Source: an uncultured Verrucomicrobiales bacterium
GTDB taxonomy: Bacteria; Verrucomicrobiota; Verrucomicrobiia; Verrucomicrobiales; DEV007
Reading direction: 5' to 3'
Assembly (NCBI GenBank): GCA_913058215.1
Contig: CAJXQE010000007.1
Coordinates: 1-48,535 of the forward strand
Length of the DNA: 48,535 nt
Part shown: piece by piece, positions 12,822 to 24,831 of the stretch
How positions within the stretch are numbered: position 1 is the first letter of the stretch
How the letters are laid out: each line of letters opens with the position of its first letter
Program-made: the position numbers and the translations under genes
The notes under the pieces: model-generated
What the model was told of the DNA's origin: nothing
Databases searched by the model: none
The model's input: the letters and a program-made list of their open reading frames with translations, nothing else

Positions 12822-14714
12822 TTAAGGCGCGGCTTCCTGCTCCAGCACAACTTTGCCGAAGCGACTGATACTTGCAGACGTGGTTTGAGAATCGCTCACA
12901 GCCACTCTTTCGAAATCACTATCGATAGAAGTTACGGTTTCAGACTCAGGTGATTCGGCAAATCCTCCCGGAAGAGTCGCGCTGAACTGAGCTGTTGCGG
13001 TCAGACTGGCGTCCGATTTCCGGCGGAGCCATTCCACTTGAAGTTTATCCCCGATCAATCGAATCAAAGGCAGGCCTGACGTTCCCGTTCCCGGTGTGAG
13101 ATAGCCGGGATCGGACTGCGTTGGATCCATATTGTAGGCGTACTCTTCGATGAGCGTGACTTTGTCTCCGTCATCATCGGCACCCGGCAGGAGTTCGTTC
13201 CCACTGAGACCGTATCCCATTCCCCAGGATTCCAGGGTGGTGGCGGGTAAAGTTACCCCGGTAAGAGTAATGTCGAATGGGTTCTCGTCAGCATCGTTAC
13301 TGGTAATCTGGAGGGTCGCAGTGCGGGCGCCAACTCCGCTTGCCTGGAATTCCACAGTGAAGGTGGTGCTTTCACCGGGGTTCAAACTGGAAACCTGAGG
13401 AGCAATGGGTAAGTAATCTGAATCGTTTGTTCCTGAAACCGAAGTGTTCAGTCCTGTGAGTTGCGCTCCGCCCTGATTGCGAATCGTAAATGTGAGTTCG
13501 TTATCGCTTCCTGCCAATACTTCTCCAAAATCGACGGTGGAATTCCCGTCAACCAAATTCGTGTTAACCGGTTGCTCAACGGTGATTTCGGGAAAGCCGG
13601 TTTGAATTTCCCACAAGAGGGCAGCTGCACCGACTGCGCCGGCTTTACCGTCCAGAGCAATGTAATAAGTTTGTCCGGAGCTGATTGGAAAACTGACCTG
13701 GCTCCATGAATCCATGCCGAGGTCGTCATTGGAAGCCAGCAGAGTGAGAGCATCCACGCTGACTCCCGTGTAGGCAGCCAGAACGGTATCGAAGCCGGAG
13801 TGTTCTGAATTCACCAGTAAGTTTCCTGTCTGGCCGGCCGTGTATTCAAACCATACAGATGCGGTACTCCCGTTTCCCGCATGCATTGGTTCGCCTGTTT
13901 CTCCGCTGGCCCCGGTGGTATCGGCTGCAATGGATCCTTCGTCAGTGATCGATAGTGCATTTGAAAAATCATCGTTGCCTGTTTGCAAATACCTCACCGT
14001 GACTTTCAGCGGAGTGTAGGAGGAGAAATGCCCGGCAAACAGGGGTTGGATCGGTGTGGCGCCACTTTGCCGGATCACTAACAAAGCGCCGTGAGCAATG
14101 ATATCGTCTCCGGCATCAGTCCCCGTATCACTTGTATTAACCCAACGCACGAGATCGCTTCGATACTGATAGGTGGCAGCGCTGGCAAAATCGGCTTCGC
14201 TGGCTGTGGCAGGAAAGAGAACTTCACTTCCGGTGGTGTTTAAGGCGGAGGGAGTCAGGCCGTTACCTTCCGGGAAAAGTTGATCGAGCGACCACTTGGC
14301 AACAATTTGCATTCCATCTCCCTGGGATATTCCAGCGAAACTGCCTCCATTTAGATCGACGCTTACTGAATTCCCGTCGTTCGCCGAGATATCGAATCTG
14401 GTTCCGGCAGCTGTTCCCGAAGTGATCTCAACATAAAAGTGTTTCGGCTGATCTCCAGCTGAATAGACGAATTGCCCTACCCGCCAGAAAGCACCGATGG
14501 TCGATATTTCTGAGCCGGAAGCGATATCGACATCGCCGGAAAAGGCGATAGATGGCGAAAGGTCGACATTGGTGAAGCGAGCCGGGCCATCCCACGCTTT
14601 CGTATCTTCTGCAGGAGTTCCAGTCAGCCGTTGGAATCCGACGACACTGTCATCGGCACGAAGAGCTGGATGAAAAAGAGATATGGCTAAAATCGCCAGA
14701 GTGATTTTTTTCAT
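12822..14714 (-). CDS. Secreted protein: TIGR02597-like, pre-peptidase-like and choice-of-anchor D domains
   Basis: A 630-residue exported protein (signal MKKITLAILAISLFHPALRA). About residues 20-230 form a domain shared with the 354-residue protein at the head of this operon: both have an opening VGF strand, SGTxAGxxFxISAN, and a WxLDxLFP motif. The architecture matches my recollection of TIGR02597, a family known mainly from Verrucomicrobiota. Residues about 250-370 (NDDFSNALSITDEGS ... YYIALDGKAG) resemble a bacterial pre-peptidase C-terminal beta-sandwich. About 375-480 (VDFGEVLAGSDNELTFTIRN ... NPFDITLTGV) is a choice-of-anchor D type immunoglobulin-like domain. LLPGADDDGDKVTLIEEYAYNMDP is an acidic calcium-loop-like segment. 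Its start overlaps the stop of the di-heme fusion gene by four bases (ATGA), so the two are translationally coupled. Function is unknown; a surface scaffold is plausible. Confidence 0.8.
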   Translation of the reverse strand: MKKITLAILAISLFHPALRADDSVVGFQRLTGTPAEDTKAWDGPARFTNVDLSPSIAFSGDVDIASGSEISTIGAFWRVGQFVYSAGDQPKHFYVEITSGTAAGTRFDISANDGNSVSVDLNGGSFAGISQGDGMQIVAKWSLDQLFPEGNGLTPSALNTTGSEVLFPATASEADFASAATYQYRSDLVRWVNTSDTGTDAGDDIIAHGALLVIRQSGATPIQPLFAGHFSSYTPLKVTVRYLQTGNDDFSNALSITDEGSIAADTTGASGETGEPMHAGNGSTASVWFEYTAGQTGNLLVNSEHSGFDTVLAAYTGVSVDALTLLASNDDLGMDSWSQVSFPISSGQTYYIALDGKAGAVGAAALLWEIQTGFPEITVEQPVNTNLVDGNSTVDFGEVLAGSDNELTFTIRNQGGAQLTGLNTSVSGTNDSDYLPIAPQVSSLNPGESTTFTVEFQASGVGARTATLQITSNDADENPFDITLTGVTLPATTLESWGMGYGLSGNELLPGADDDGDKVTLIEEYAYNMDPTQSDPGYLTPGTGTSGLPLIRLIGDKLQVEWLRRKSDASLTATAQFSATLPGGFAESPESETVTSIDSDFERVAVSDSQTTSASISRFGKVVLEQEAAP

Positions 14715-16432
14715 GGGGTGGTTTGGGTAAATTGTTCGTCTGTGAGGGTTTGGAGGAAGGCGACAAGCGCACTTTTGTCATCCTTTGAAAGTGAGATTCC
14801 CCCGAGAGGATGTTTTGCCAGATTAGGGTCCAGGGTCGGGCTACGTTCGATTTCGGTGCAGTAGTGCTCAACGACTTCTTCAAGTGTCGCGAACCTTCCA
14901 TCGTGCATGTAGGGAGCCGTCAACGCGACGTTGCGGAGGGAAGGGGTTACAAATTTTCCGCGATCCGTCTCCTTCCCTGTAACAGCTTCCAGCCCCTTAT
15001 CTATGTCGACCTTCAGGCCGTTGTTATGAAATCGATGATTGGAGAAGAAGGGACCGCTGTGGCAGTGAAAGCAATCGGCTCCGTGAAATCCGCGGCGAGG
15101 GTCAAACTCCGTCATAAACAGTTCGAGGCCCTTCAATTCCTGTTCAGTTAGACTTCCTTCCCCTTTTGCATCCCGGTCAAACTTGGAATCGTAGGAGGTC
15201 AATGTCAGGAGGAATTGCTCGATGGCGATTCCGATCCTTTCGGCGCTCAGACTCGAATCGCCGTATGCAGTTCTAAACAGCTCGAGGTATTCGGATTCAG
15301 AAGAGAGTTTCTTCACAACGTTTTCCAAAGATTCGTCCATTTCAAGGTGATCCTGAATGGGCATGAGAGCCTGCTCTCGAAGCGAAGCTGCGCGACCATC
15401 CCAGAAAAACGACTCTTTCCAGGCGAGGTTGACGAGAGACATTGAATTTCGCGTTCCTTCTTTTTTATCCACGCCGGATGAAAAGCGGATTGGATCGGAA
15501 AAGGCATGCTCTGCCTGATGACAGGAGGCACACGAAACATTTCCCGTCCGCGATAGTCGGGCGTCATGAAACAGGCGGCGCCCGAGCTCCACGCGTTCAT
15601 TGGTCAGTGGAAAGTCGAGAGGGAGCGCAGGAATCGGGAAGCCTTTTTTCAGTTTAAAAGAGTAAGGGGTTCCGACGGTGTTTCGAGTGATCGAGGTTGC
15701 CGGCTTCGTTTCGTGCTCTGATTGCTGGATGCTGCGTAAAGAAAAGACACCAGCGAGGCGCTCCTTCAATATCTTCGCGACTGGATCGCCCTCGCGGGAG
15801 TGAGTTGAAGTTTGCTCCCGGGTTTTAAAGGGCTCATCCGCATTGAAAATGCGATCAAGATGGAAATCGAGGGAGATCGTGGTCGAATCTGCCATTTCAA
15901 ACTCCAAAGGAATTTCACAAGTGACCCGGTTCCGGGGATTGCCAAGGTGATAGGAGAAACCGAGGTCACCTTGGGCATGGCCTTCCATTGCTATATAGAT
16001 GTATCCGCCTTGCGGTGACCAATGAAGATTGTTCACCAGAGGGTTGAGCGGATGCATTGCAGGATACTGGTTCGGGTCGGCAAGGTCCGTGGCCTCGTCG
16101 AGACCAATGTAGATTTGCAATCCGCCATAGGAATCTTCAGGAACGCCATCAAGGACGAGCCTGGATACTGCATTTCCTCCGTCGACATAAGCGAACCAAT
16201 TTTTGCGGGCGATTCGTGTTTGCCTGGTCTTCGAGAGTAAGGTCGGCTCGCTCAAAAGGTAAGCGAGGCGGGAAATGTCGATGTGCTCACCCGCAGCCGT
16301 TTCGATCGCTTCGGTTGGAATAGTGATTTCTTTCCCTTCCCACAAATGCCGAATCTCAAGCGTGACTGTTCCTGCCACCGTCAAAGACGGAAGCAGAATC
16401 AGGCAAGAGAAAATGACAGTTAGGGATCGCAC
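14711..16432 (-). CDS. Fusion of an MbnP-like copper-protein domain with an MbnH/MauG-like di-heme enzyme
   Basis: A 573-residue exported protein starting at GTG 16432 (signal MRSLTVIFSCLILLPSLTVAG). Residues about 20-225 match the MbnP-like domain: HIDISRLAYLLSEP, an AMHPLNPLVNNLHWSPQGGY segment, then EGHAQGDLGFSYHLG. Residues about 270-565 form a di-heme cytochrome c peroxidase/MauG domain with CASCH (Cys301, Cys304, His305) and CFHCH (Cys454, Cys457, His458), plus MPIQDHLEMDE and PSLRNVALTAPYMHDGRFATLEEVVEHY. In methanotrophs MbnH is a separate enzyme that oxidises a Trp of MbnP to kynurenine, creating a copper site; here both are in one chain. Trp residues remain in the N-terminal part, including LHWSP. 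Substrate in cis is an inference. The gene lies 21 bases after the YHYH-sulfatase gene and overlaps the next gene by four bases. Confidence 0.88.
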   Translation of the reverse strand: MRSLTVIFSCLILLPSLTVAGTVTLEIRHLWEGKEITIPTEAIETAAGEHIDISRLAYLLSEPTLLSKTRQTRIARKNWFAYVDGGNAVSRLVLDGVPEDSYGGLQIYIGLDEATDLADPNQYPAMHPLNPLVNNLHWSPQGGYIYIAMEGHAQGDLGFSYHLGNPRNRVTCEIPLEFEMADSTTISLDFHLDRIFNADEPFKTREQTSTHSREGDPVAKILKERLAGVFSLRSIQQSEHETKPATSITRNTVGTPYSFKLKKGFPIPALPLDFPLTNERVELGRRLFHDARLSRTGNVSCASCHQAEHAFSDPIRFSSGVDKKEGTRNSMSLVNLAWKESFFWDGRAASLREQALMPIQDHLEMDESLENVVKKLSSESEYLELFRTAYGDSSLSAERIGIAIEQFLLTLTSYDSKFDRDAKGEGSLTEQELKGLELFMTEFDPRRGFHGADCFHCHSGPFFSNHRFHNNGLKVDIDKGLEAVTGKETDRGKFVTPSLRNVALTAPYMHDGRFATLEEVVEHYCTEIERSPTLDPNLAKHPLGGISLSKDDKSALVAFLQTLTDEQFTQTTP

Positions 16433-16453
16433 AGGAAATAGTGGTAAAAGGAT

Positions 16454-19400
16454 TTAAGGGGCCACAATGATTTGGATGGAGTCAAAGACCCGGGTGTCGC
16501 CCGTATTCGGGTTGTCTGGAAACGCGACCGTTGCCGATGTGTAGGGCGCTGCTTGTGGAACGTTGCATTTCACCCAGAATTGGTCCGCGGTTTCACTGTT
16601 GTTTACACGTGATATATAGCTGGCTGCGACGCCATCAACAGTGATCGAGTCCGGTGCAAGATTCATATTCATTGGCACACCAGCCGCGCCTGTCTGATTC
16701 GGCAACTGAATGTAGATGGTGTCTTCCGCTGCGCCCGGTGGGTCGCTGTATCCTCCGCCGAGTGCAGCATCCAGGTCGATTGCCGCATTGTAGGCCGTCA
16801 GCGCCTGGCCAGTGAGACTCGCAATATTCAGCGGCGTTTGTTCATTGGCGTCAATGCTCAGGTTGTAGAATGCGTAGGTGGGAACGTCCTGTGTATCATC
16901 CGGGTCGCCGAAGATGATCAGTTTGTAGTCAGGGAAATCTCCCAGGCGAATTGACCTTCCGGCAACGTTCCCTCCGAAGGTTTCTGCAATCGCATTTCGC
17001 TGAGCGCTATCCGCACCTGACAAGATCGGATTGATGCTAACGCCATCCACGATTGTCTCAGGAACCGGAACATTCGCCATCTCAAGAATCGTTGGGTAAA
17101 GGTCAGCAACATTGACCAGCTTGTCAGTCGTGCTGCCGTCAGCGACGCTCACCGAAGGACCCTGAACGACCATGGGCACATGGATGCCGCCTTCATAAAG
17201 GTCGCCCTTGGAATGCCCGCCGCCTCCGGTTGGACCGAAGGGAGCCTGGACGACCTGGGCGGGAGTTCCGTTGTCGCCAACAAGAATGATGTTCGTTTTG
17301 CTCAAATCGACTGACTGAAGAAGGCGTCCGATTTCGGTATCGAGAGCTTCGAGAGCTTTTTGATAAAGTTCCTTATCGCTCGATCCCGTTCCGCCTTGAA
17401 GAAGGCCCGAAGGAGGCTCGTGAAAAGGAGTGTGAGGCGCATTGAAACCCATCCACACAAACCAGGGCTGACTGGCTAGATTCTTTGCATCGATGAAGGT
17501 CTTCGCTTCGTTCACCTGATCCGTCGTCGAATAGGTCGTCGAGTTGGCAGCTGTTCCATTTGTGTTTTTGTTCCAATTTTCGTAGCCATCAGTCTGATCA
17601 GGAACACCACCTCCTGTGATCCCAACAAAGTGAGGCCAGCCGCCAAGGGTATCGTATCCAGTATTTCCAGCGCCCAGATGCCACTTACCAAACGAGGCCA
17701 ATTGATAAGGTGAACTCGCTGCAGAAAATGCTTTTGGGATGGTGGTTTCGGTGGTGGGCAGGGTATCGCCGGCATTGCCCACTCCGGTTCGAAATGCCTG
17801 ACGTCCTGTCATGATTGCAGATCGAGTAGGGGAACAAACAGGTTGGGCATATGCATTGGTGAAGCGCAATCCATTTGCCGCCATTGCCTGAAGATTCGCC
17901 ATGGTCGCAAAGGTCGTTCCCGGATTAAGGGTCGCGTTGTTGTCAATCGGGCTGGAATCAATTCCCCAGTCATCAACGATTAGAAGAAGAATGTTAGGAT
18001 TTGCCACGTGGGTATAGGTCCCGGTCCGGGTGATGCCACCCGGCCATGTCGCAGAGATGGTGTAGTCGCCATCAGAGAGGGATGAAGAGTCGACCTCGAG
18101 AGTCAGAACATACTGAGAAGTTCGCGAAACGAGAACGGCAGGGCTTCCATCAAATGTGAGTGCCGTTGGGTAACTGTTCAGGTTGGTCGGAGGTGTGCCG
18201 CTTCCACTTATCAAAGTAATTGTGATCGTGGACTTCGGAGCCTGGACGATGCTATCGTCGTAGTCGAAGCCTGCATCATCGAAGGCGACGAGGGATTCCA
18301 GTCTAGGTTGGTAGTAACCAGTATCGGTTGTCGCAGCGATTGCTCCGTCCGTTAAGCTGGCTATTTCAGAATTGGCTTCCACTTTGATCGGCAACTCGGT
18401 CCAGGTGTTGGCACTTGGGGAAAAATCGACACGATAGGAGCCACCTTCTGCGGCGCTCCATGTAAGCGTGACATCTCCACTCGCATCGTCGGCGGAAACG
18501 GAGGTGACTCGAGCAGGGCGTTCTGGACCTCCTTCAAAGTAGGTTTCGGCAGAAGCAGGCACGTCGTTGACTGCTGCTCCTGTCGGATACCCATAATAAA
18601 CCCTGGCGATATTGTAGGGAAACGCCGGTGTTCCGTCTGCTTCCATGGAGACGAAATAGGCAAAGGTTCCGTTGGGGAATTCCGGGGTGACGCAGATCCG
18701 ACCATTGTAGATATCAAGGTCAAAGTCGACGCCAACAGTTTGACCGAGATCACCTTTGTAATCGTAGTCTTCCAGGTAATGGCCTAAGGGATACTGTGCA
18801 CTGACGTTCGGCCCGGTTTGGTTGCCGGCGATGGTGGTGGATCGCCCTTCCAGAGTGTTTGCCCATTGTGGAAGGCTGTTACGCGCGGCACCATCCGGCA
18901 GAGGGCGTTTCTGGTATCCGGAAATCATCTGTTGGACCGTGGTGTTGGCATCGTTCGGATCAGAAAATCCGTAGGGTCCGTAGACAGGGTAGCCGTCTTT
19001 GACCCAACCAAGAATGGGTGAGTGCTTCCCGTTGAAATTTTCAGTGTAAACGTTCGTGGCGGTATTGTGGTCAACGCTGTCACCGAGAAGATGGCGGAGG
19101 CCGGGAGGGTTGGCGTGGTAGTGATGATTCGGACCGGCCTGGTGCGCGTTCGCATTGTCAAAAGTCACCGACTCGTTGACGTAGGCGTCGCGATTCCAAA
19201 CTCCGTCTCCGACGAATCCTGAATTTGGACGAGCATCGGCGGCGTTGGCATTTGAATAGGAAAAGGCGTCACGACTGTCGAACATCGCGATCCCGTCGAC
19301 AAAGTATCCGATCGCACCCAGTCCGGTTGGTGTCTTAACTGCCGGGGCGACAGGATTTCGGGGGAACTGGAAAATAACTGCGCGATTGGCGGGGTAGTTC

Positions 19401-19759
19401 GGAAACAGGTTCGTCTTCGCTTCATTGCCATACCATGGGCCCATCACATGGAAACCTAATCCGCTGGTGCGGATGAAGACGTCGGTAGCGGTGAAGCTGA
19501 CTTCATGAACTCCCGCATAGGTGGGTAAAGCCTGAACGCCCTGGCCGCGGTTCCAGACCGTGACGGAATTTTGGCTGTTCTGGTCTGCCAGAGTTTCGTA
19601 GATCCGGGCATATCGACCCGAGAACTCCGTAGACCATGAGGTGAGCAGTGGTTCGGCAAAAGCCGGAATCATCAGAAGTAGGATGGCGAGGATTCCAAGG
19701 AAAGAATGGCAATGCTGCAACCTGGAGAGGTCTTTGGAAAGAGGGGTTTTCGCAGTCAT
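16454..19759 (-). CDS. Fusion of a YHYH domain with a type I sulfatase, secreted
   Basis: An 1101-residue exported protein with a signal segment (FLGILAILLLMIPAFA). The N-terminal 390 residues contain GPNHHYHANPPGLRHLL (near residue 211) and WVKDGYPVYGPYGFSDPND, features of the YHYH domain, whose function is not established. Residues about 420-615 are beta-rich immunoglobulin-like linkers. From about 618 a full sulfatase follows: LLIVDDWG, QPVCSPTRSAIMTGRQAFR with formylglycine Cys642, FGKWHLGAG, FNAPHTPFHEPP, ILVGDNGTP, GGGHSKGDLYEGGIHVPM and VADLYPTILEMANV. All key sulfatase residues are present, so it should be active if matured. The last 100 residues are another beta-rich tail, without the lysine run of the other three sulfatases. 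It is the third gene of a five-gene minus-strand operon, 49 bases after the FnIII gene and 21 bases before the di-heme fusion. Confidence 0.9.
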   Translation of the reverse strand: MTAKTPLSKDLSRLQHCHSFLGILAILLLMIPAFAEPLLTSWSTEFSGRYARIYETLADQNSQNSVTVWNRGQGVQALPTYAGVHEVSFTATDVFIRTSGLGFHVMGPWYGNEAKTNLFPNYPANRAVIFQFPRNPVAPAVKTPTGLGAIGYFVDGIAMFDSRDAFSYSNANAADARPNSGFVGDGVWNRDAYVNESVTFDNANAHQAGPNHHYHANPPGLRHLLGDSVDHNTATNVYTENFNGKHSPILGWVKDGYPVYGPYGFSDPNDANTTVQQMISGYQKRPLPDGAARNSLPQWANTLEGRSTTIAGNQTGPNVSAQYPLGHYLEDYDYKGDLGQTVGVDFDLDIYNGRICVTPEFPNGTFAYFVSMEADGTPAFPYNIARVYYGYPTGAAVNDVPASAETYFEGGPERPARVTSVSADDASGDVTLTWSAAEGGSYRVDFSPSANTWTELPIKVEANSEIASLTDGAIAATTDTGYYQPRLESLVAFDDAGFDYDDSIVQAPKSTITITLISGSGTPPTNLNSYPTALTFDGSPAVLVSRTSQYVLTLEVDSSSLSDGDYTISATWPGGITRTGTYTHVANPNILLLIVDDWGIDSSPIDNNATLNPGTTFATMANLQAMAANGLRFTNAYAQPVCSPTRSAIMTGRQAFRTGVGNAGDTLPTTETTIPKAFSAASSPYQLASFGKWHLGAGNTGYDTLGGWPHFVGITGGGVPDQTDGYENWNKNTNGTAANSTTYSTTDQVNEAKTFIDAKNLASQPWFVWMGFNAPHTPFHEPPSGLLQGGTGSSDKELYQKALEALDTEIGRLLQSVDLSKTNIILVGDNGTPAQVVQAPFGPTGGGGHSKGDLYEGGIHVPMVVQGPSVSVADGSTTDKLVNVADLYPTILEMANVPVPETIVDGVSINPILSGADSAQRNAIAETFGGNVAGRSIRLGDFPDYKLIIFGDPDDTQDVPTYAFYNLSIDANEQTPLNIASLTGQALTAYNAAIDLDAALGGGYSDPPGAAEDTIYIQLPNQTGAAGVPMNMNLAPDSITVDGVAASYISRVNNSETADQFWVKCNVPQAAPYTSATVAFPDNPNTGDTRVFDSIQIIVAP

Positions 19760-19808
19760 ATTGTTTGGGGAATGAAATTAGACGGATTCTACGGATTGGC
19801 TGACGGAA

Positions 19809-21638
19809 TCAGGGTTTGCGCTTTAATTGCACTTTTACAGCATCTAATTTCCCGCTATCAGTTCCCGCATAGGCTTTAAGCTTCAGGTTGTAGCTCTTCT
19901 TTTTGTCCTTCAGTTTGCCTGCCGGTTTTAACTCAATTTCAATTGACTCATGGGCCCCGAATGCTTGCTCACCGGTGTAGTAGCGTCCGGTTTTTACTGC
20001 TGCCGTGATATTCGCTGAACCCGGAGAACGGCGCCTGTATTTCACTTTGAAAAAGCTGTTTCCCTTGGAACCTGAGAGCCGGATACGATCAGCGGTGAGT
20101 GCATCGTTCTGGACTTGAGAGTAGTTCTTTACTTTCGAAAGACCGGTCGTTTTCTCCACGATCTTTTGCCCACTACCCGACGAGTTGTAGCGGTTGTTTC
20201 CTTTTTTCTGGGAAGGTTTGCTTCCGATGGTTAGGTCCGGAATGATCACGGCCCGGTTTCCGAGAGCACCAGTGGCAGCATTGACACCAGTGACTTCTCC
20301 ATTGCTTGCTTCCACCCAATAGTAATAATCGGTGCGGGCACCTGCCGTGAGATCATCAAAGGTCAGGTCGGCTCCTTCACCAATCAGGACGGCTTCGCCG
20401 AAGACATTGGTCGACGAACGATAGATTCTGTAGGTGCTTGCATCAGTGACTTCGTCCCAGGACAGACTCACTAGGCCGGCAAACTCACCCATCGAGACCA
20501 CGAGGTTCGTCACAGCGGCAAGAGACCTCCAGCCGGAATCGCTTGCTCCCGGAGAGCTTGCATCGCCGTTGTTCTTCGCAACGATCCAATAGAAATAGAC
20601 CACGCCTGCACTGGCGCTTGTATCGGAGTAGGAAGTGGAAGCCGTATTCAGCAGAAGAGAAGCGGACCCGAAGTCATCGGAAGTGTTGCGATAGATGTCG
20701 TAGTTGATGGCATTGCTGATCGCATTCCAGGAGAGGTCGATGTTTGTCAGAGAAGTTCCGTTTGTAGCAGTCAATCCATCCGGGGAACCGAGGTTTCGGG
20801 ATCCGGCGGCAGAAGCACTCTCAGCTCCATCACCAAGCGAATCGTAGGCCAGGACCCAGTAAAAATAATCAGTCGCGAAAATGGCTGAAGAGTCATCATA
20901 TGAATTCGCAGTTGGCTGGGCAATCTCTGTCGCGGTGGCAAAATCATTGACGGTGTTTCGAAAGACTTTGTAGCCGTCGGCACCGGCAAGCGTGTCCCAG
21001 GATAGCGACACTTTGTCAGGAAGGGTTCCGTTGGTTGCGGTGAAATTCGTTGGGGCAGTCAGCAGGCGACCGACCATTCCGCTTGCGTAGGTTCCACTGT
21101 TTCCCGGGGCCGCGGGGTTGAAGTCTCCTCCTAATGTCGTACTCAGTTGCGCGATCGAATAGGATCCGGAATCTGCAGGTGTGGTAAACCCAATTGTGCC
21201 GCCACTGTTTCCAATGCCATCCGTGCGAAAACAGTGCCAGGTATCTCCCTTTGCAAGAGATCCGCCCGGCGCAAGATGATCTGGAAGCCAGTAAAAAGTC
21301 AGTGGGGTGTTCTCGCTGATTCCCAGCTCAGCATAGTCGATTTCTGAAATAGTCTCAGCGAATCCGACCGCACCGTTCCAGTAGGCTCCGTTGTCGGCCT
21401 GGATGACCGCGAGAATCTTGTCATCGCTTTCTCCAAGCAGGCTTCCACCTGAGAGAACTGTGCCTTCGGCATCCGTAAGATCGGCAAACCCATTGTCACT
21501 GACATCGGCAACGAGAATGCCAACAGTGTCATTGGAGACGGGGAGATCGCCGAAAAAGAACTGAATGGTGACATCCGCCGCGGCTGTACCGAGCCAAAGG
21601 AAGCTGATTGAAAGAAGGGTGAGAAGGCGTGCTTTCAT
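19809..21638 (-). CDS. Secreted fibronectin type III-like protein with lysine-rich C-terminal module
   Basis: A 609-residue exported protein (signal MKARLLTLLSISFLWLGTAAA). Residues 22-195 are a beta-rich domain I do not recognise. Three FnIII-like repeats follow at about 195-460, each with an LSWD or LSWN strand, a YK/YD/YR-(I/V)-(F/Y)R core and a YFYW or YYYW strand; consecutive repeats are similar enough to suggest internal duplication. Residues 466-609 are a basic module beginning PDLTIGSK and continuing GNNRYNSSGSGQK, QVQND, FKVKYRRR, ANITAAVK and a final DAVKVQLKRKP. The same module ends two other proteins in this window, at 31442-33067 and 41005-42186. It lies 21 bases after the TIGR02597-like gene. 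No enzymatic motif is seen; a surface adhesin or scaffold is likely. Confidence 0.82.
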   Translation of the reverse strand: MKARLLTLLSISFLWLGTAAADVTIQFFFGDLPVSNDTVGILVADVSDNGFADLTDAEGTVLSGGSLLGESDDKILAVIQADNGAYWNGAVGFAETISEIDYAELGISENTPLTFYWLPDHLAPGGSLAKGDTWHCFRTDGIGNSGGTIGFTTPADSGSYSIAQLSTTLGGDFNPAAPGNSGTYASGMVGRLLTAPTNFTATNGTLPDKVSLSWDTLAGADGYKVFRNTVNDFATATEIAQPTANSYDDSSAIFATDYFYWVLAYDSLGDGAESASAAGSRNLGSPDGLTATNGTSLTNIDLSWNAISNAINYDIYRNTSDDFGSASLLLNTASTSYSDTSASAGVVYFYWIVAKNNGDASSPGASDSGWRSLAAVTNLVVSMGEFAGLVSLSWDEVTDASTYRIYRSSTNVFGEAVLIGEGADLTFDDLTAGARTDYYYWVEASNGEVTGVNAATGALGNRAVIIPDLTIGSKPSQKKGNNRYNSSGSGQKIVEKTTGLSKVKNYSQVQNDALTADRIRLSGSKGNSFFKVKYRRRSPGSANITAAVKTGRYYTGEQAFGAHESIEIELKPAGKLKDKKKSYNLKLKAYAGTDSGKLDAVKVQLKRKP

Positions 21639-21659
21639 AGGAGGAGTTCAGGGAGGGAA

Positions 21660-22724
21660 CTAGTAGGCAGGGGTGTTGATCCAAACATGGTCGGCGGCAT
21701 CTACAGTGCTGGCCTTTCGCAGGAGCAAGCCAACGGCAGGTGAAATTTCGGTATCATCGGAAACGGGATAAGCGTTTCCATCGTCGAGAACCCACTGATT
21801 TCCGGTACGAAAATACACGGCCGAAGGGGTTCGGTTGATGGCGGCAGCAGCATTGTCAAAAAGGTGAAGCTCATCCTTTCGGCTAGCTTCATCAGTGCTC
21901 GCACTTTCAACGAAACCGTTAGCTGCGGTAAGGTTCAGATCCTCAAGCTTTACCGCAACCGGACGAACCAAGGCGAGAGAGGAATCGTTTTCGCCATCAC
22001 TCAGAGTTTTTAATCGCGTTACAAAGGTACGGGAATCGACTCTCTGATGCGTCACGAATTGTGTCGCTGCTTCGGTCGCAGGGTGGCGAATGATGAAGGA
22101 TGAGCCGGGAGGAACCACTTTCGAGCCCGCATCTGGAAAACCTTTTACGCTCTGGCGCCAGATCGTATTTTCTAAAAAGTAGATCTGACTTGGAGCCAGA
22201 TCGATTCCGTCTTTTGTCTGGTTGAAAAACTGGATCTCGGTTTTCCTGGCAGTGGGAAATACTGAAGAAGAAGCGTGAACCGTGTTTTGGCTTGCGGCAG
22301 GAAAGAGCAGGTCCAATGTCCAGTGAGGGAGGATTTCGAATTCATCACTCGTCGCCACACCTGAAAAATCGTCCCCATCGAGGGCAATTGTGACAGTCGC
22401 TGCTAAATTTGCCGTTATCGAAAAGACGTATCCGGCGCGAGTTCCTGAAGTGAATCGAAGGTAGGACGGAGCGGTCACAAATTGATCCACCGCCCAGCCG
22501 GGATTGTCTCCGTTGGAAAGTATCGCGCTGTCTGAGCTGGGTGTTGGTGTGGCATTCAATTCTCCTTCAAAGGATGAATTCTGCCGAAACGGAACCGAGA
22601 CGAGGGTGTCCGAACCTGAAGGACAGTCGACTCGAACAAAGCCAACGATTCGTTCCTGCGCAGTCAGGTCAGAGATCAAACTGACGAGAAGGAGCGAAAA
22701 GGTAAGGAGGTGAGGGGATTTCAT
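21660..22724 (-). CDS. Secreted TIGR02597-like family protein
   Basis: A 354-residue exported protein (signal MKSPHLLTFSLLLVSLISDLTAQ). It is beta-rich with short repeated motifs: VGFVRVDCPSGSDTLVSVPF at the start, TSGTRAGYVFSITAN, HWTLDLLFPA, and two later units with an FFN or LFDN strand, a Y-F-x(5)-W segment and a GLLLRK or SFIIRH strand. The pattern agrees with what I recall of TIGR02597, a family of unknown function in Verrucomicrobiota. Its first 130 residues align with the N-terminal domain of the protein at 12822-14714, so the operon begins and ends with related proteins. It is the first gene of the secretome operon; the 104 bases upstream hold candidate regulatory repeats. It ends WINTPAY, with no sorting signal that I recognise. 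Confidence 0.8.
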   Translation of the reverse strand: MKSPHLLTFSLLLVSLISDLTAQERIVGFVRVDCPSGSDTLVSVPFRQNSSFEGELNATPTPSSDSAILSNGDNPGWAVDQFVTAPSYLRFTSGTRAGYVFSITANLAATVTIALDGDDFSGVATSDEFEILPHWTLDLLFPAASQNTVHASSSVFPTARKTEIQFFNQTKDGIDLAPSQIYFLENTIWRQSVKGFPDAGSKVVPPGSSFIIRHPATEAATQFVTHQRVDSRTFVTRLKTLSDGENDSSLALVRPVAVKLEDLNLTAANGFVESASTDEASRKDELHLFDNAAAAINRTPSAVYFRTGNQWVLDDGNAYPVSDDTEISPAVGLLLRKASTVDAADHVWINTPAY

Positions 22725-22788: not shown

Positions 22789-22820
22789 GGGACGAATTCT
22801 GCAAATCAAGGGATGAATCC
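22789..22820 (-). promoter_or_regulatory. Two direct repeats upstream of the secretome operon (candidate LytTR operator)
   Basis: On the plus strand GGGACGAATTC (22789-22799) and GGGATGAATCC (22810-22820) agree at 9 of 11 positions and start 21 bases apart, two helical turns. They lie 65-96 bases upstream of the ATG at 22724, after the response-regulator stop codon. LytTR regulators bind direct repeats with this spacing, but these bases do not match a known consensus. The second copy is also an inverted repeat (GGGAT-GA-ATCCC). Confidence 0.3.
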
Positions 22821-22828
22821 CCCAAATA

Positions 22829-23608
22829 TCAGGAAGAATTCAGTAAATCCTGCAGTTCCGGGAGATTTCTGGACAGAGCGAGGCGTCCTTTTGAAAGCAG
22901 ATTCACCCAGACTTCGCCCCGGACGGGGGTCTCGATGGAGGCGACTTTTTCTATTGGGATGATGGCGGAGCGGCTGATGCGAATAAACTTTTTCGGGTCC
23001 AGTTTCCCTTCAAGCTTCCCCAGTGTTTGACGCCACAAATGAAGTCGCTCCCCGGTATGAACCTCGATGTAATTCCCATCGGCCTGAAAATATTCGACCT
23101 CCTCTACCGGAACATAGAAAATTTCTCCTCGATCCCGGATTTCTACTCGTCTGAGATATTCTGTTACTTCTTCAGATCGTCGTTCCCGTTCGTCAGCCAG
23201 CCAGTTTATGACCTTCGCTTTCGACTCGATTTCGTCTCGTTTCCCGAGGAGTGCCTTCGCTTTCTCGATGGCGATCTTCAGGCGCTGACGGCTGAAGGGT
23301 TTCAGGAGGTAGTCGATTGCGTTGACTTCGAAAGCACGAATCGCGTGCTGATCGTATGCGGTTTGAAAGATTAGAAGAGGAAGGTCGACCGATTCTGCAG
23401 CCAACTCGGAGATCACTTCAAAACCGTCGAGATCCGGAAGATTGATATCCAAAAGAACCAGGTCCGGCTTCTCCTTCGTTATGGAGTCGACTGCTCCGGT
23501 TCCGGTTTCAGTTTCGCCAATCACCTCGACTTCCTCCAGAGATGAAAGCATGATACGGATTCGCTCGCGGGCGAGAGGTTCATCATCGACAATCAGGATA
23601 CGAATCAT
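22829..23608 (-). CDS. LytTR-family response regulator
   Basis: A 259-residue two-component response regulator. Residues 1-120 are a receiver domain: VDDEPLARERIR at the acidic pocket, VLLDINLPDLDGF with phospho-acceptor Asp54, FQTAYDQHAIRAFEVNAIDYLLKPF with the conserved Thr and Lys. A linker of about 40 charged residues follows. The LytTR DNA-binding domain spans about 150-255 (VEEVEYFQADGNYIEVHTG, LEGKLDPKKFIRISRSAIIP). LytTR proteins bind direct-repeat sites and often control surface and exopolysaccharide genes. The start codon overlaps the histidine kinase stop by four bases (23605-23608), so the pair is translationally coupled. The gene just downstream begins the secretome operon, which makes that operon a natural target; this is inference. 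Confidence 0.95.
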   Translation of the reverse strand: MIRILIVDDEPLARERIRIMLSSLEEVEVIGETETGTGAVDSITKEKPDLVLLDINLPDLDGFEVISELAAESVDLPLLIFQTAYDQHAIRAFEVNAIDYLLKPFSRQRLKIAIEKAKALLGKRDEIESKAKVINWLADERERRSEEVTEYLRRVEIRDRGEIFYVPVEEVEYFQADGNYIEVHTGERLHLWRQTLGKLEGKLDPKKFIRISRSAIIPIEKVASIETPVRGEVWVNLLSKGRLALSRNLPELQDLLNSS

Positions 23609-24831
23609 TTTTTTGGAGGATTCTGGTTAGGCTTGCTGGAGTAGGGGAACCGAATTGAAATGCGGGTGCCGCCTCCCGGAGGTGTGGAAATGTTTACGGT
23701 GCCTTTCTCTTCATAGAGCGAATCCAGTCGGGATCGAATATTGGAAAGTCCGATCCCACCGGAAGAGCCGGAACTCTTAGGGCTGTTTTCCCAACCAATC
23801 CCATCGTCCTCTACGACCAACTCGATATTACCCTTGTCGTCGCGTTGCGAAGAAATCAAGAGGGTGGATGGCTCGGCTTTCGGCTCAATTCCATGTCGAA
23901 CGGCATTCTCCGCGAGCGGTTGAAGGATTAAGGTTGGAACCAGGCCGTCAAGAGTGTCCTCATCGATTTCCTCCCTGATTTGCAGGCGATCCGGGAATCG
24001 AATTTTCTGGATCGCGAGATAGTCGCGGAGGAGTCCCATTTCTTCCCTCAACAGAATCTCCTGGGTTTCGCTACGCGCTAGAACCTGCCGCAATAAATCG
24101 CTGAGTTGGCCTATCATTTCATCGGCTTTACCGGGATTCGTATAAACCAGTGTCGAAATTGAATTGAGCGTATTGAACAGGAAGTGGGGTTCAAGCCGAC
24201 TCTGAATCGATTGCAATTGGGCCTTTGCCAAATCCCTTTGCAGTTGGAGAGACTTTCGCTCCTTTTTCTGAGCATCCCGATAGTGAAGATTCGAACTGGT
24301 TAAAAATACGAGGACCCAATAGAGGGGAAACCAGAACTGGGCCTTTCGGACTACGATGTCTACCCGGAATTCGTTTTCACTGTTAACCCTGTTTTGTTGC
24401 TGCTGCTGGCGGCGCGGGGGAAGGGGGCGCTCCCGTAATCGCCCTTCGCCCGCTTCAAGGCCCTGGGGCACCAGGGCTTGAACTGCCGGGGCAACTGCGA
24501 AAATGATCATGACTTCTGCAGTCAGGATGAGCACAAGGGAGAAGCAAAGGTGCATCAAAATGTTTCGCAATCGACGACGACTTTCAAAAATGGGAAATTG
24601 CTTTGCCAACCACCAGACCACAGGCCCCAAAAGGATCCACGGGCTCCAACCAACGAGAACACGGGTAATTGAGCGGGGCCAGGATAATTCAATACCAAGG
24701 CGATACTGGGCTGCGAAAGCCGCCAGAATCAAAATCCAGATGCCCAGATAGACGGCAAGAAACCTGACGCGTTGGAGGAACGGTCGGGGGGATTCTGAAT
24801 CTGCTGGAGCTGCCATTTCGAGACTTTGCAT
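23605..24831 (-). CDS. LytS/YehU-type sensor histidine kinase
   Basis: A 408-residue membrane sensor kinase, partner of the LytTR regulator. Four hydrophobic segments lie at about residues 24-44, 60-76, 92-118 and 165-180, with an arginine/glutamine-rich stretch between the third and fourth (RRQQQQQNR at about 140-148, from a short CAG-type repeat). A coiled linker rich in Lys/Gln leads to the His_kinase domain SRLEPHFLFNTLNSIS with phospho-acceptor His216. The ATP-binding part has LQPLAENAVRHGIEP (N box), VEDDGIGW (G1) and GGIGLSNIRSRL (G2). The stimulus cannot be inferred because the membrane part has no known sensor domain. An ATG six codons later is an alternative start. The gene begins one base after the dioxygenase-like gene stops. 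Confidence 0.94.
   Translation of the reverse strand: MQSLEMAAPADSESPRPFLQRVRFLAVYLGIWILILAAFAAQYRLGIELSWPRSITRVLVGWSPWILLGPVVWWLAKQFPIFESRRRLRNILMHLCFSLVLILTAEVMIIFAVAPAVQALVPQGLEAGEGRLRERPLPPRRQQQQQNRVNSENEFRVDIVVRKAQFWFPLYWVLVFLTSSNLHYRDAQKKERKSLQLQRDLAKAQLQSIQSRLEPHFLFNTLNSISTLVYTNPGKADEMIGQLSDLLRQVLARSETQEILLREEMGLLRDYLAIQKIRFPDRLQIREEIDEDTLDGLVPTLILQPLAENAVRHGIEPKAEPSTLLISSQRDDKGNIELVVEDDGIGWENSPKSSGSSGGIGLSNIRSRLDSLYEEKGTVNISTPPGGGTRISIRFPYSSKPNQNPPKK

Follow-up and report, generated by a model that had tools for sequence, protein, structure and literature searches.

A verrucomicrobial gene cluster uniting an MbnP-MbnH fusion with a YHYH-sulfatase may encode a LytTR-controlled secreted copper module

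The MbnP/MbnH protein families (TIGR04052/TIGR04039) are called 'mysterious partners' in the accessible portion of one report (PMC3621798). In methanotrophs, CorA and MopE are described, in the available part of the source (PMC3912023), as copper-repressed copper(I) binders of the cell surface that are co-transcribed with a di-heme protein, and the copper site of CorA is given there as two histidines, a water molecule and kynurenine 62. For the YHYH domain Iyer and colleagues predicted, from a histidine triad and an aspartate, a zinc hydrolase activity in the tails of jumbo phages (PMC7824862), and YHYH is named among diatom families in the accessible section of another study (PMC11992049). 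The window analyzed here, by which we mean the whole 48,535-nucleotide stretch (contig CAJXQE010000007.1, assembly GCA_913058215.1), belongs to a 7.67-Mb assembly of 595 contigs from an uncultured Verrucomicrobiales bacterium. It carries five head-to-tail open reading frames (ORFs) on the minus strand (22724 to 12822), in which a YHYH-sulfatase gene is followed by a gene for an MbnP-MbnH fusion. This pairing was not found in the literature searched, which did not cover subscription papers, and the view of the initial annotation that the cluster is a candidate undescribed system stands on that footing.

We favor, with a probability of about 0.5, the reading that the cluster is a LytTR-controlled secreted copper module whose core is the MbnP-MbnH fusion and the YHYH(-sulfatase) protein. 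This reading draws on the pattern of partners around the fusion in relatives, the co-occurrence of the families across genomes, galactose oxidase as another partner, one operon with metal-transport genes (L060), conserved residues, and a regulator pair with a direct repeat. The components are as follows.

23605..24831, minus strand: LytS-type sensor histidine kinase (PF06580 and HATPase_c), upstream of the operon.
22829..23608, minus strand: LytTR-type response regulator (PF00072 and PF04397), directly upstream of the operon.
22789..22817, minus strand: direct repeat TTCATCCC-N13-TTCGTCCC (TTCRTCCC-N13-TTCRTCCC), a putative operator in the 104 bp between the regulator and gene 1.
21660..22724, minus strand: gene 1, secreted TIGR02597 family protein (213.5 bits, cut-off 50; profile positions 8-362 of 363).
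19809..21638, minus strand: gene 2, secreted protein with an fn3 domain (40 bits) and a basic C-terminus.
16454..19759, minus strand: gene 3, secreted protein with YHYH (residues about 130-374; 122 bits) and Sulfatase (588-897; 130 bits) domains, the candidate client enzyme.
14711..16432, minus strand: gene 4, MbnP (21-198) joined to a di-heme MbnH/MauG-like domain (271-570); GTG start.
12822..14714, minus strand: gene 5, secreted protein with TIGR02597-like (107 bits) and choice-of-anchor D Ig-like (61 bits) regions; 4-bp overlap with gene 4.

The genes are separated by 21, 49, 21 and -4 bp and are likely co-transcribed. Signal-peptide-like N-termini were identified in all five products by a simple hydropathy test rather than SignalP (best 12-residue hydropathy of 2.2-3.2), with no later transmembrane-like stretch. 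The ORFs, profile scores and hydropathy thus agree with the coordinates, gaps, family names and general export first assigned to the cluster. The five genes stand as they were given, but the cluster extends upstream, beyond those coordinates, to a dedicated two-component system and a probable operator. A consensus scan for promoters and terminators was uninformative, with sites rarer than in shuffles (3 vs 6.5; 8 vs 11.4).

The neighborhood of the fusion was examined at 66 loci, namely the window, 52 other MbnP places from 114 relatives, and 13 of 16 loci from a scan of named genomes, after removal of three duplicates (L006, L007 and L018, equal to G020:C5, G062:C97 and G024:C23). The named relatives with the fusion protein are Verrucomicrobiota metagenome-assembled genomes. 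MbnP itself (PF20243) occurs in 46 of the 114 relatives (53 places) and in 14 of 240 genomes across the phylum. Neighbors were counted by tblastn on the same strand within 6.5 kb; an ORF-based count covers 62 loci, missing the anchors L075, L095, L096 and L098, all of which are in the tblastn count. The genomes are largely fragmented assemblies, and contig ends depress the counts. A YHYH gene lies near MbnP-MbnH at 27 of the 66 loci, outside which fall L014, L060 and L083, where YHYH is cut off or lies more than 6.5 kb away, and L091, where it is on the opposite strand. Galactose oxidase was found at 14 loci, a sulfatase beside or fused at 16, a CusA-like with a CusB-like gene at two, and TIGR02597 at four. 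Any of YHYH, galactose oxidase and CusA-like is present at 43 loci, and YHYH and galactose oxidase never occur together (0/66). The 53 MbnP places of the 114 relatives alone give YHYH at 20, galactose oxidase at 14 and CusA-like at one. A further set of 10 MbnP places in nine genomes outside the first 114 shows YHYH at eight (about 3 kb) and galactose oxidase at one. This set weighs more because the 13 added loci had been found by likeness to the window's own fusion protein. Its 10 places come from 11 rows, two G208 rows being one gene broken by a frame change; gene pieces were fetched for nine, the remaining one (G219) having a short MbnP match (34.5 bits).

Genome-wide co-occurrence points the same way. 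MbnP is present in 30 of the 32 genomes with this YHYH class (hypergeometric 1e-13) and in 17 of the 18 with galactose oxidase (3e-7), both values being uncorrected for kinship. The YHYH class was selected by hand from matches of about 75-137 bits, with a 28-bit piece in G096 added; broken YHYH pieces in G058 (103 bits) did not enter, and with them the count would be 30 of 33. On a quick tree of 57 MbnP-MbnH proteins, the partner label is clustered, with 10 changes against a shuffled mean of 24, a clustering partly raised by near-copies, and YHYH versus galactose oxidase needs one change. The labels of L014, L060 and L083 were set to YHYH by hand, and that of L091 by its opposite-strand YHYH match. 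An apparent four-domain MbnP-MbnH-YHYH-sulfatase fusion of 1646 amino acids (L079) was rejected, as it runs through 300 unknown bases in its MbnH part; the locus was counted as having YHYH nearby in the 66-locus count, the co-occurrence and the tree.

Several further arrangements were observed around the fusion. At L211:6324-10493 (G310:C76), MbnP-MbnH has a YHYH gene on either side, and the two belong to different classes. ORFs of 240-245 amino acids without a Pfam match stand between YHYH and MbnP-MbnH at L214:6846-7583, L216:8255-8986 and L217:6912-7634. Genes of cluster 3, of which the one scanned is DUF1501, occur near MbnP-MbnH at eight loci, on the opposite strand in the rows checked and possibly by chance.

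L057 (G024:C23), a relative from the same genus, has all five genes in this order, and L058 (G020:C5) keeps the YHYH-sulfatase, MbnP-MbnH and TIGR02597-like genes with identical +21 and -4 gaps, so the operon is not a chance arrangement. The widely conserved core comprises two genes, the MbnP-MbnH fusion and the YHYH(-sulfatase) gene. Among the loci searched, gene 2 has a homologue in L057 only, whereas gene 5 has homologues in L057 and L058 and, as part of an 1850-amino-acid protein in a different gene order, in L083. Only the downstream TIGR02597 protein is found at L058. Gene 5 itself scores above the TIGR02597 cut-off, yet covers profile positions 32-254 only. The initial annotation had named recurrence of the same four or five families as the support to look for and had seen the operon as bracketed by two TIGR02597 proteins; the core families do recur, but the full set was found only in L057, and the bracketing is confined to the window and L057 among the 66 loci. 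As a marker of the system TIGR02597 was rejected, being present in 64 of the 114 relatives yet near the fusion at only the four loci counted above. The gene 2 product is likely a scaffold, and the TIGR02597, FN3 and Ig-like proteins may be lineage-specific accessories with scaffold or anchoring roles. Elsewhere, eight consecutive TIGR02597 matches, one with an internal stop, occupy one strand over about 10.5 kb at G106:C1:1194536-1205001.

The partners in relatives provide the links to copper. In the ORF-based count, a giant partner ORF starts with a Kelch/galactose-oxidase unit and overlaps the MbnP-MbnH gene by 4 bp in 9 of 12 cases. The L100 protein matches galactose oxidase structures (9g8h, E 7e-97; 1gof, E 5e-66) and keeps their Cys, Tyr, Tyr-His and His positions, which we take to build the copper-radical site. 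Strict motifs in the 14 galactose-oxidase proteins were found 13 times (PR-x-YHS), 10 times (Cys motif), seven times (last His) and five times (GR-x-YN), counts that miss substitutions and include proteins cut by contig ends. Twelve of these 14 proteins carry two CXXCH sites further along the chain. These giant exported-type ORFs (L100:1810-10665 and relatives, up to 2951 amino acids in L100) also contain lectin, PKD, beta-propeller-like and di-heme cytochrome parts. At L060 (G093:C14, 7005-19998), one strand carries a YHYH protein, a CusB-like adaptor with a heavy-metal-binding domain, a sulfatase, a CusA/CzcA-family pump (TIGR00914, 1049 bits, cut-off 701) and MbnP-MbnH. The YHYH protein there is joined, with no unknown bases, to a multicopper oxidase of CueO-like type that shows HWH, HPH, HIH and HCH-x3-H motifs; with a score of 316 it does not reach the CueO equivalog cut-off of 525. 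L021 has the order CusB-like, CusA/CzcA-family, MbnP-MbnH. These two operons are the most direct copper links for both MbnP-MbnH and YHYH.

Gene 4 is a member of the Pfam families MbnP (PF20243; 79.6 bits, cut-off 27) and CCP_MauG (PF03150; 187.6 bits), the latter with heme motifs CASCH at 301 and CFHCH at 454 as in the MbnH/MauG fold. It lies outside the equivalogs TIGR04052 (18.5 bits, cut-off 140) and TIGR04039 (244.4 bits, cut-off 362.85). W138, H162 and H211 are invariant in 57 of 57 fusions and H137 is present in 56; the first heme motif is kept in all 57 and the second, at its first Cys, in 56. In MbnH/MauG proteins a tyrosine replaces the peroxidase methionine as heme ligand. Tyr524, found in 56 of the 57 fusions, aligns with the tyrosine of 6e1c (annotated Di-heme enzyme) that is presumably such a ligand. 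The invariance of W138 is compatible with a tryptophan-to-kynurenine conversion, and kynurenine is reportedly formed by MbnH, according to Manesis and colleagues (PNAS 2021). We infer that the MbnP domain of gene 4 contains kynurenine and binds copper. The window reads W138-S-P140 (HW-S-P), which is neither WxW nor the MopE/CorA ligand set of Kyn-x-His plus a distant His; position 140 is W in 49 of the 57 fusions and P in 8. The MbnP profile has no match among PDB sequences at E 1.

The YHYH domain of gene 3 scores 122 bits against PF14240 (cut-off 25). In place of the literal letters YHYH the window has HHYH, and other members have YHYH, HHYH, FHYH, YHVH, YHIH or SHHH. H206, H213, H215 and H246 are kept in 33 of 33 cellular homologues and Cys356, the sole cysteine of the window's YHYH domain, in 32. 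An alignment of 71 sequences, including 60 from viral contigs (taken from 62 non-redundant viral pieces), keeps H246, D255, Y260, Y263, D331 and Y368 in all rows and Cys356 in 70. YHYH-type proteins are abundant in viral contigs (L117-L196), with at least 592 confirmed relatives. A search of PDB sequences with the YHYH profile gave no match at E 1, galactose oxidase included. AlphaFold models reached a pLDDT (predicted local distance difference test) of 34.8 with 11 sequences and 55.7 with 71; Foldseek of the 71-sequence model against the PDB found nothing at E 0.001, the model being too poor for this to count.

Related regulatory genes accompany the core in two relatives, L057 and L085. In L057, of the same genus, the kinase (58% identical) and regulator (66%) stand in the same place, and all seven genes and the repeat keep their order. 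L085 has a related kinase (34%) and regulator (48%), with the repeat before YHYH. Of random 104-bp stretches taken from the window, 1.3% contain a 9-mer repeat with this 21-bp spacing when up to one mismatch is allowed. The exact pattern has two matches in the window's own genome (six with one mismatch; none for the reversed-pattern control) and 17 matches in 12 of 114 genomes (one for the control). Six of the 17 lie in MbnP-MbnH or YHYH loci: the window and L057 have one each, L085 has three (where the MbnP-MbnH ORF starts, before a CotH-kinase-regulator unit and before YHYH), and another directly precedes a YHYH gene of G059 (L203). Among the other 11, four (two each in G060 and G113) resemble tandem repeats. 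One lies between another LytTR pair and the following gene (L204, 2082-6930), and those at L206 (1045-3666) and L210 (5387-5741) precede or adjoin other genes, the latter near a weak kinase match of 55 bits; at L209 a weak regulator match lies some 3 kb from the copy, and L205, L207 and L208 show no link. The repeat is therefore not exclusive to MbnP-MbnH and YHYH genes, and its copies at L204, L206 and L210 suggest a wider family of such regulators. Gene order and repeat placement support well a control of MbnP-MbnH and YHYH genes by this regulator type in a few genomes, where the repeat would likely be the LytTR operator. At L085:6897-8396, a CotH kinase-family gene with its own repeat copy stands between MbnP-MbnH and the LytTR kinase.

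On the favored reading of a secreted copper module, the LytTR kinase/regulator pair would sense a signal and switch on the five genes via the TTCRTCCC repeat. The di-heme MbnH-like domain of gene 4 would oxidize Trp138 in the MbnP domain to which it is fused, with kynurenine as the probable product, and the modified residue, together with conserved histidines, would make a Cu(I) site. MbnP may then hand copper to, or work beside, the YHYH-sulfatase encoded just upstream, whose YHYH domain is predicted to be a copper-dependent enzyme or a copper-binding part. For scaffolding or anchoring, presumably at the cell surface, this lineage would have added the TIGR02597, FN3 and Ig-like proteins. A role for copper is proposed because of the protein families and the neighbors in relatives (galactose oxidase, multicopper oxidase and CusB-CusA-like genes), and the kynurenine, the direction of copper flow and the chemistry of YHYH are likewise predictions, whereas gene order, domains, conserved residues, the partner pattern, the regulator and the repeat are observed.

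A number of observations weigh against this scheme. The window is without a copper transporter or known copper enzyme. TIGR00914 spans CusA and CzcA, so the L060 pump need not be copper-specific. None of the partners was found at 23 of the 66 loci, several of which end at a contig edge, and one of the 10 further places (G238) has neither YHYH nor galactose oxidase. Of 45 YHYH places of this class, 27 are more than 3 kb from MbnP, contig ends not being allowed for, and MbnP is likewise missing from the vicinity of 8 of the 22 galactose-oxidase places. HWxP is the form seen in the window's clade, while most homologues have HWxW. The HHYH motif is not kept in the phage relatives, which share the histidines only in part: in this alignment, the viral rows are without H206, H213 and H215, one His standing one column away. 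In addition, the published prediction for YHYH is a zinc hydrolase, as far as the available text goes (PMC7824862), and the YHYH models are too poor for testing a metal site.

Copper homeostasis, as MopE/CorA-like uptake or as resistance, is an unlikely alternative function, in which MbnP-MbnH and YHYH bind or sequester copper outside the cell and the sulfatase is a passenger. It would fit the co-transcription of the copper-repressed binders CorA and MopE with a di-heme protein (accessible part of PMC3912023) and the CusB-CusA-like pump genes at L060 and L021. Against it, galactose oxidase at 14 loci and the recurrence of the YHYH-sulfatase fusion suggest enzyme clients instead of storage.

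The initial annotation saw the cluster as one extracellular machine that perhaps oxidizes and desulfates a polysaccharide; a five-protein complex acting so on a sulfated polysaccharide, with the di-heme domain supplying the oxidation, we regard as quite improbable. The sulfatase part of gene 3 carries all type I core motifs (DD 596-597, CSPTR 642, GKWHLG 691, DNG and KG), and its best solved chain is a kappa-carrageenan sulfatase (S1_16, PDB 9fo1; E 1.2e-27). Sulfatases are also many in the genome, with 325 first-look candidates for the gene 3 query, 13 of them scored, and galactose oxidases act on sugars. Because of these 325 candidates, adjacency of a sulfatase is weak evidence; the YHYH-sulfatase fusion, which recurs in both domain orders (L091, L113), is the stronger. 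The sulfatase is optional, being absent from 15 of 24 close YHYH neighbors of MbnP-MbnH in the ORF-based count, and no substrate can be named. The five genes include no sugar uptake or glycan lyase gene. The MauG-like residues of the di-heme domain presumably fit protein modification, and its target is more likely the MbnP domain fused to it than a polysaccharide. Oxidation and desulfation of a polysaccharide has partial support only; what survives of that proposal is the likely co-transcription, the recurrence of the core families and, through the neighbors in relatives, copper. A second YHYH-sulfatase in the same genome (G000:C62:3435-6773, L109) is 63% identical, has YHVH for HHYH, and shows no MbnP match in the 15 kb covered.

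Improbable too is a zinc hydrolase like that of phage tails, with MbnP-MbnH, though part of the operon, having a copper function unconnected with it. The prediction of Iyer and colleagues from a histidine triad and an aspartate (available text of PMC7824862) supports this, as do H246 and D255, kept in every aligned sequence, viral rows included. The strong and repeated linkage of YHYH to copper-type genes argues against it, and the nearly invariant Cys356 (70/71) is left unexplained by that prediction. It is doubtful, in turn, that YHYH proteins are unrecognized extracytoplasmic copper enzymes, fed or matured by the self-processing MbnP-MbnH copper protein and interchangeable with galactose oxidase as clients. 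Such an enzyme would use His, Tyr and one invariant Cys, perhaps in a galactose-oxidase-like Cys-Tyr radical site; the absence of three of the four histidines from the viral rows makes it less probable. Since FGE is a copper enzyme, MbnP-MbnH might follow sulfatases to supply copper for formylglycine formation, as a same-strand sulfatase at 16 of 66 loci and 35 FGE-family matches in the genome could suggest, but MbnP in only 6 of 33 sulfatase-rich same-genus genomes and the lack of a nearby sulfatase match at 13 of 14 galactose-oxidase loci make this very improbable. The FGE-family matches do make formylglycine maturation of the gene 3 sulfatase possible.

In the literature searched, YHYH chemistry was met only as a prediction (available text of PMC7824862), no relevant description of YHYH with a sulfatase or with copper was found, and no named MbnP-MbnH client outside methanotroph copper biology was found. 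YHYH proteins are widespread, in viral contigs as well as among diatom families (PMC11992049, accessible section), and the recurring MbnP-MbnH/YHYH pairing points to a copper-related role for the family. The partner swap between YHYH and galactose oxidase makes both YHYH chemistry and the MbnP-MbnH client testable. If the copper-module reading is true, a two-component system of its own governs secreted copper chemistry in some Verrucomicrobiota; if YHYH proteins are copper enzymes, those of phage tails and diatoms would share that chemistry.

Compared with known systems, the two-component pair resembles LytS/LytTR systems in its PF06580 kinase, PF04397 regulator and direct repeat, the 21-bp spacing being typical of LytTR operators. 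The sulfatase shares Cys-type core motifs with S1-type sulfatases; here it is joined to YHYH, and it is too distant from them for a substrate to be assigned. The YHYH domain shares its Pfam domain, H246, D255 and Cys356 with phage-derived sequences, whereas here it is bacterial, often sulfatase-fused and gene-linked to MbnP-MbnH. Galactose oxidase (PDB 1gof, 9g8h) occupies the same partner place in 14 of 66 loci; it was found neither in the window nor, at E 1e-20, in the window's own genome, and a search for sequence kinship between it and YHYH gave none. Like the MbnP/MbnH pair, the fusion combines a copper-binding-protein family with a gene-linked MauG-like di-heme protein, but as a single polypeptide; methanobactin genes were not seen next to it, and its partners are YHYH, galactose oxidase or pump genes. 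MopE-SACCP and CorA-CorB of methanotrophs, as far as the available source describes them, likewise comprise a secreted or surface copper(I) protein with an oxidized tryptophan and a co-transcribed di-heme protein, although CorA has Kyn-x-His and the homologues here HW-x-P or HW-x-W. In its working, the module may be likened to MopE/CorA or MbnP/MbnH with a client enzyme attached.

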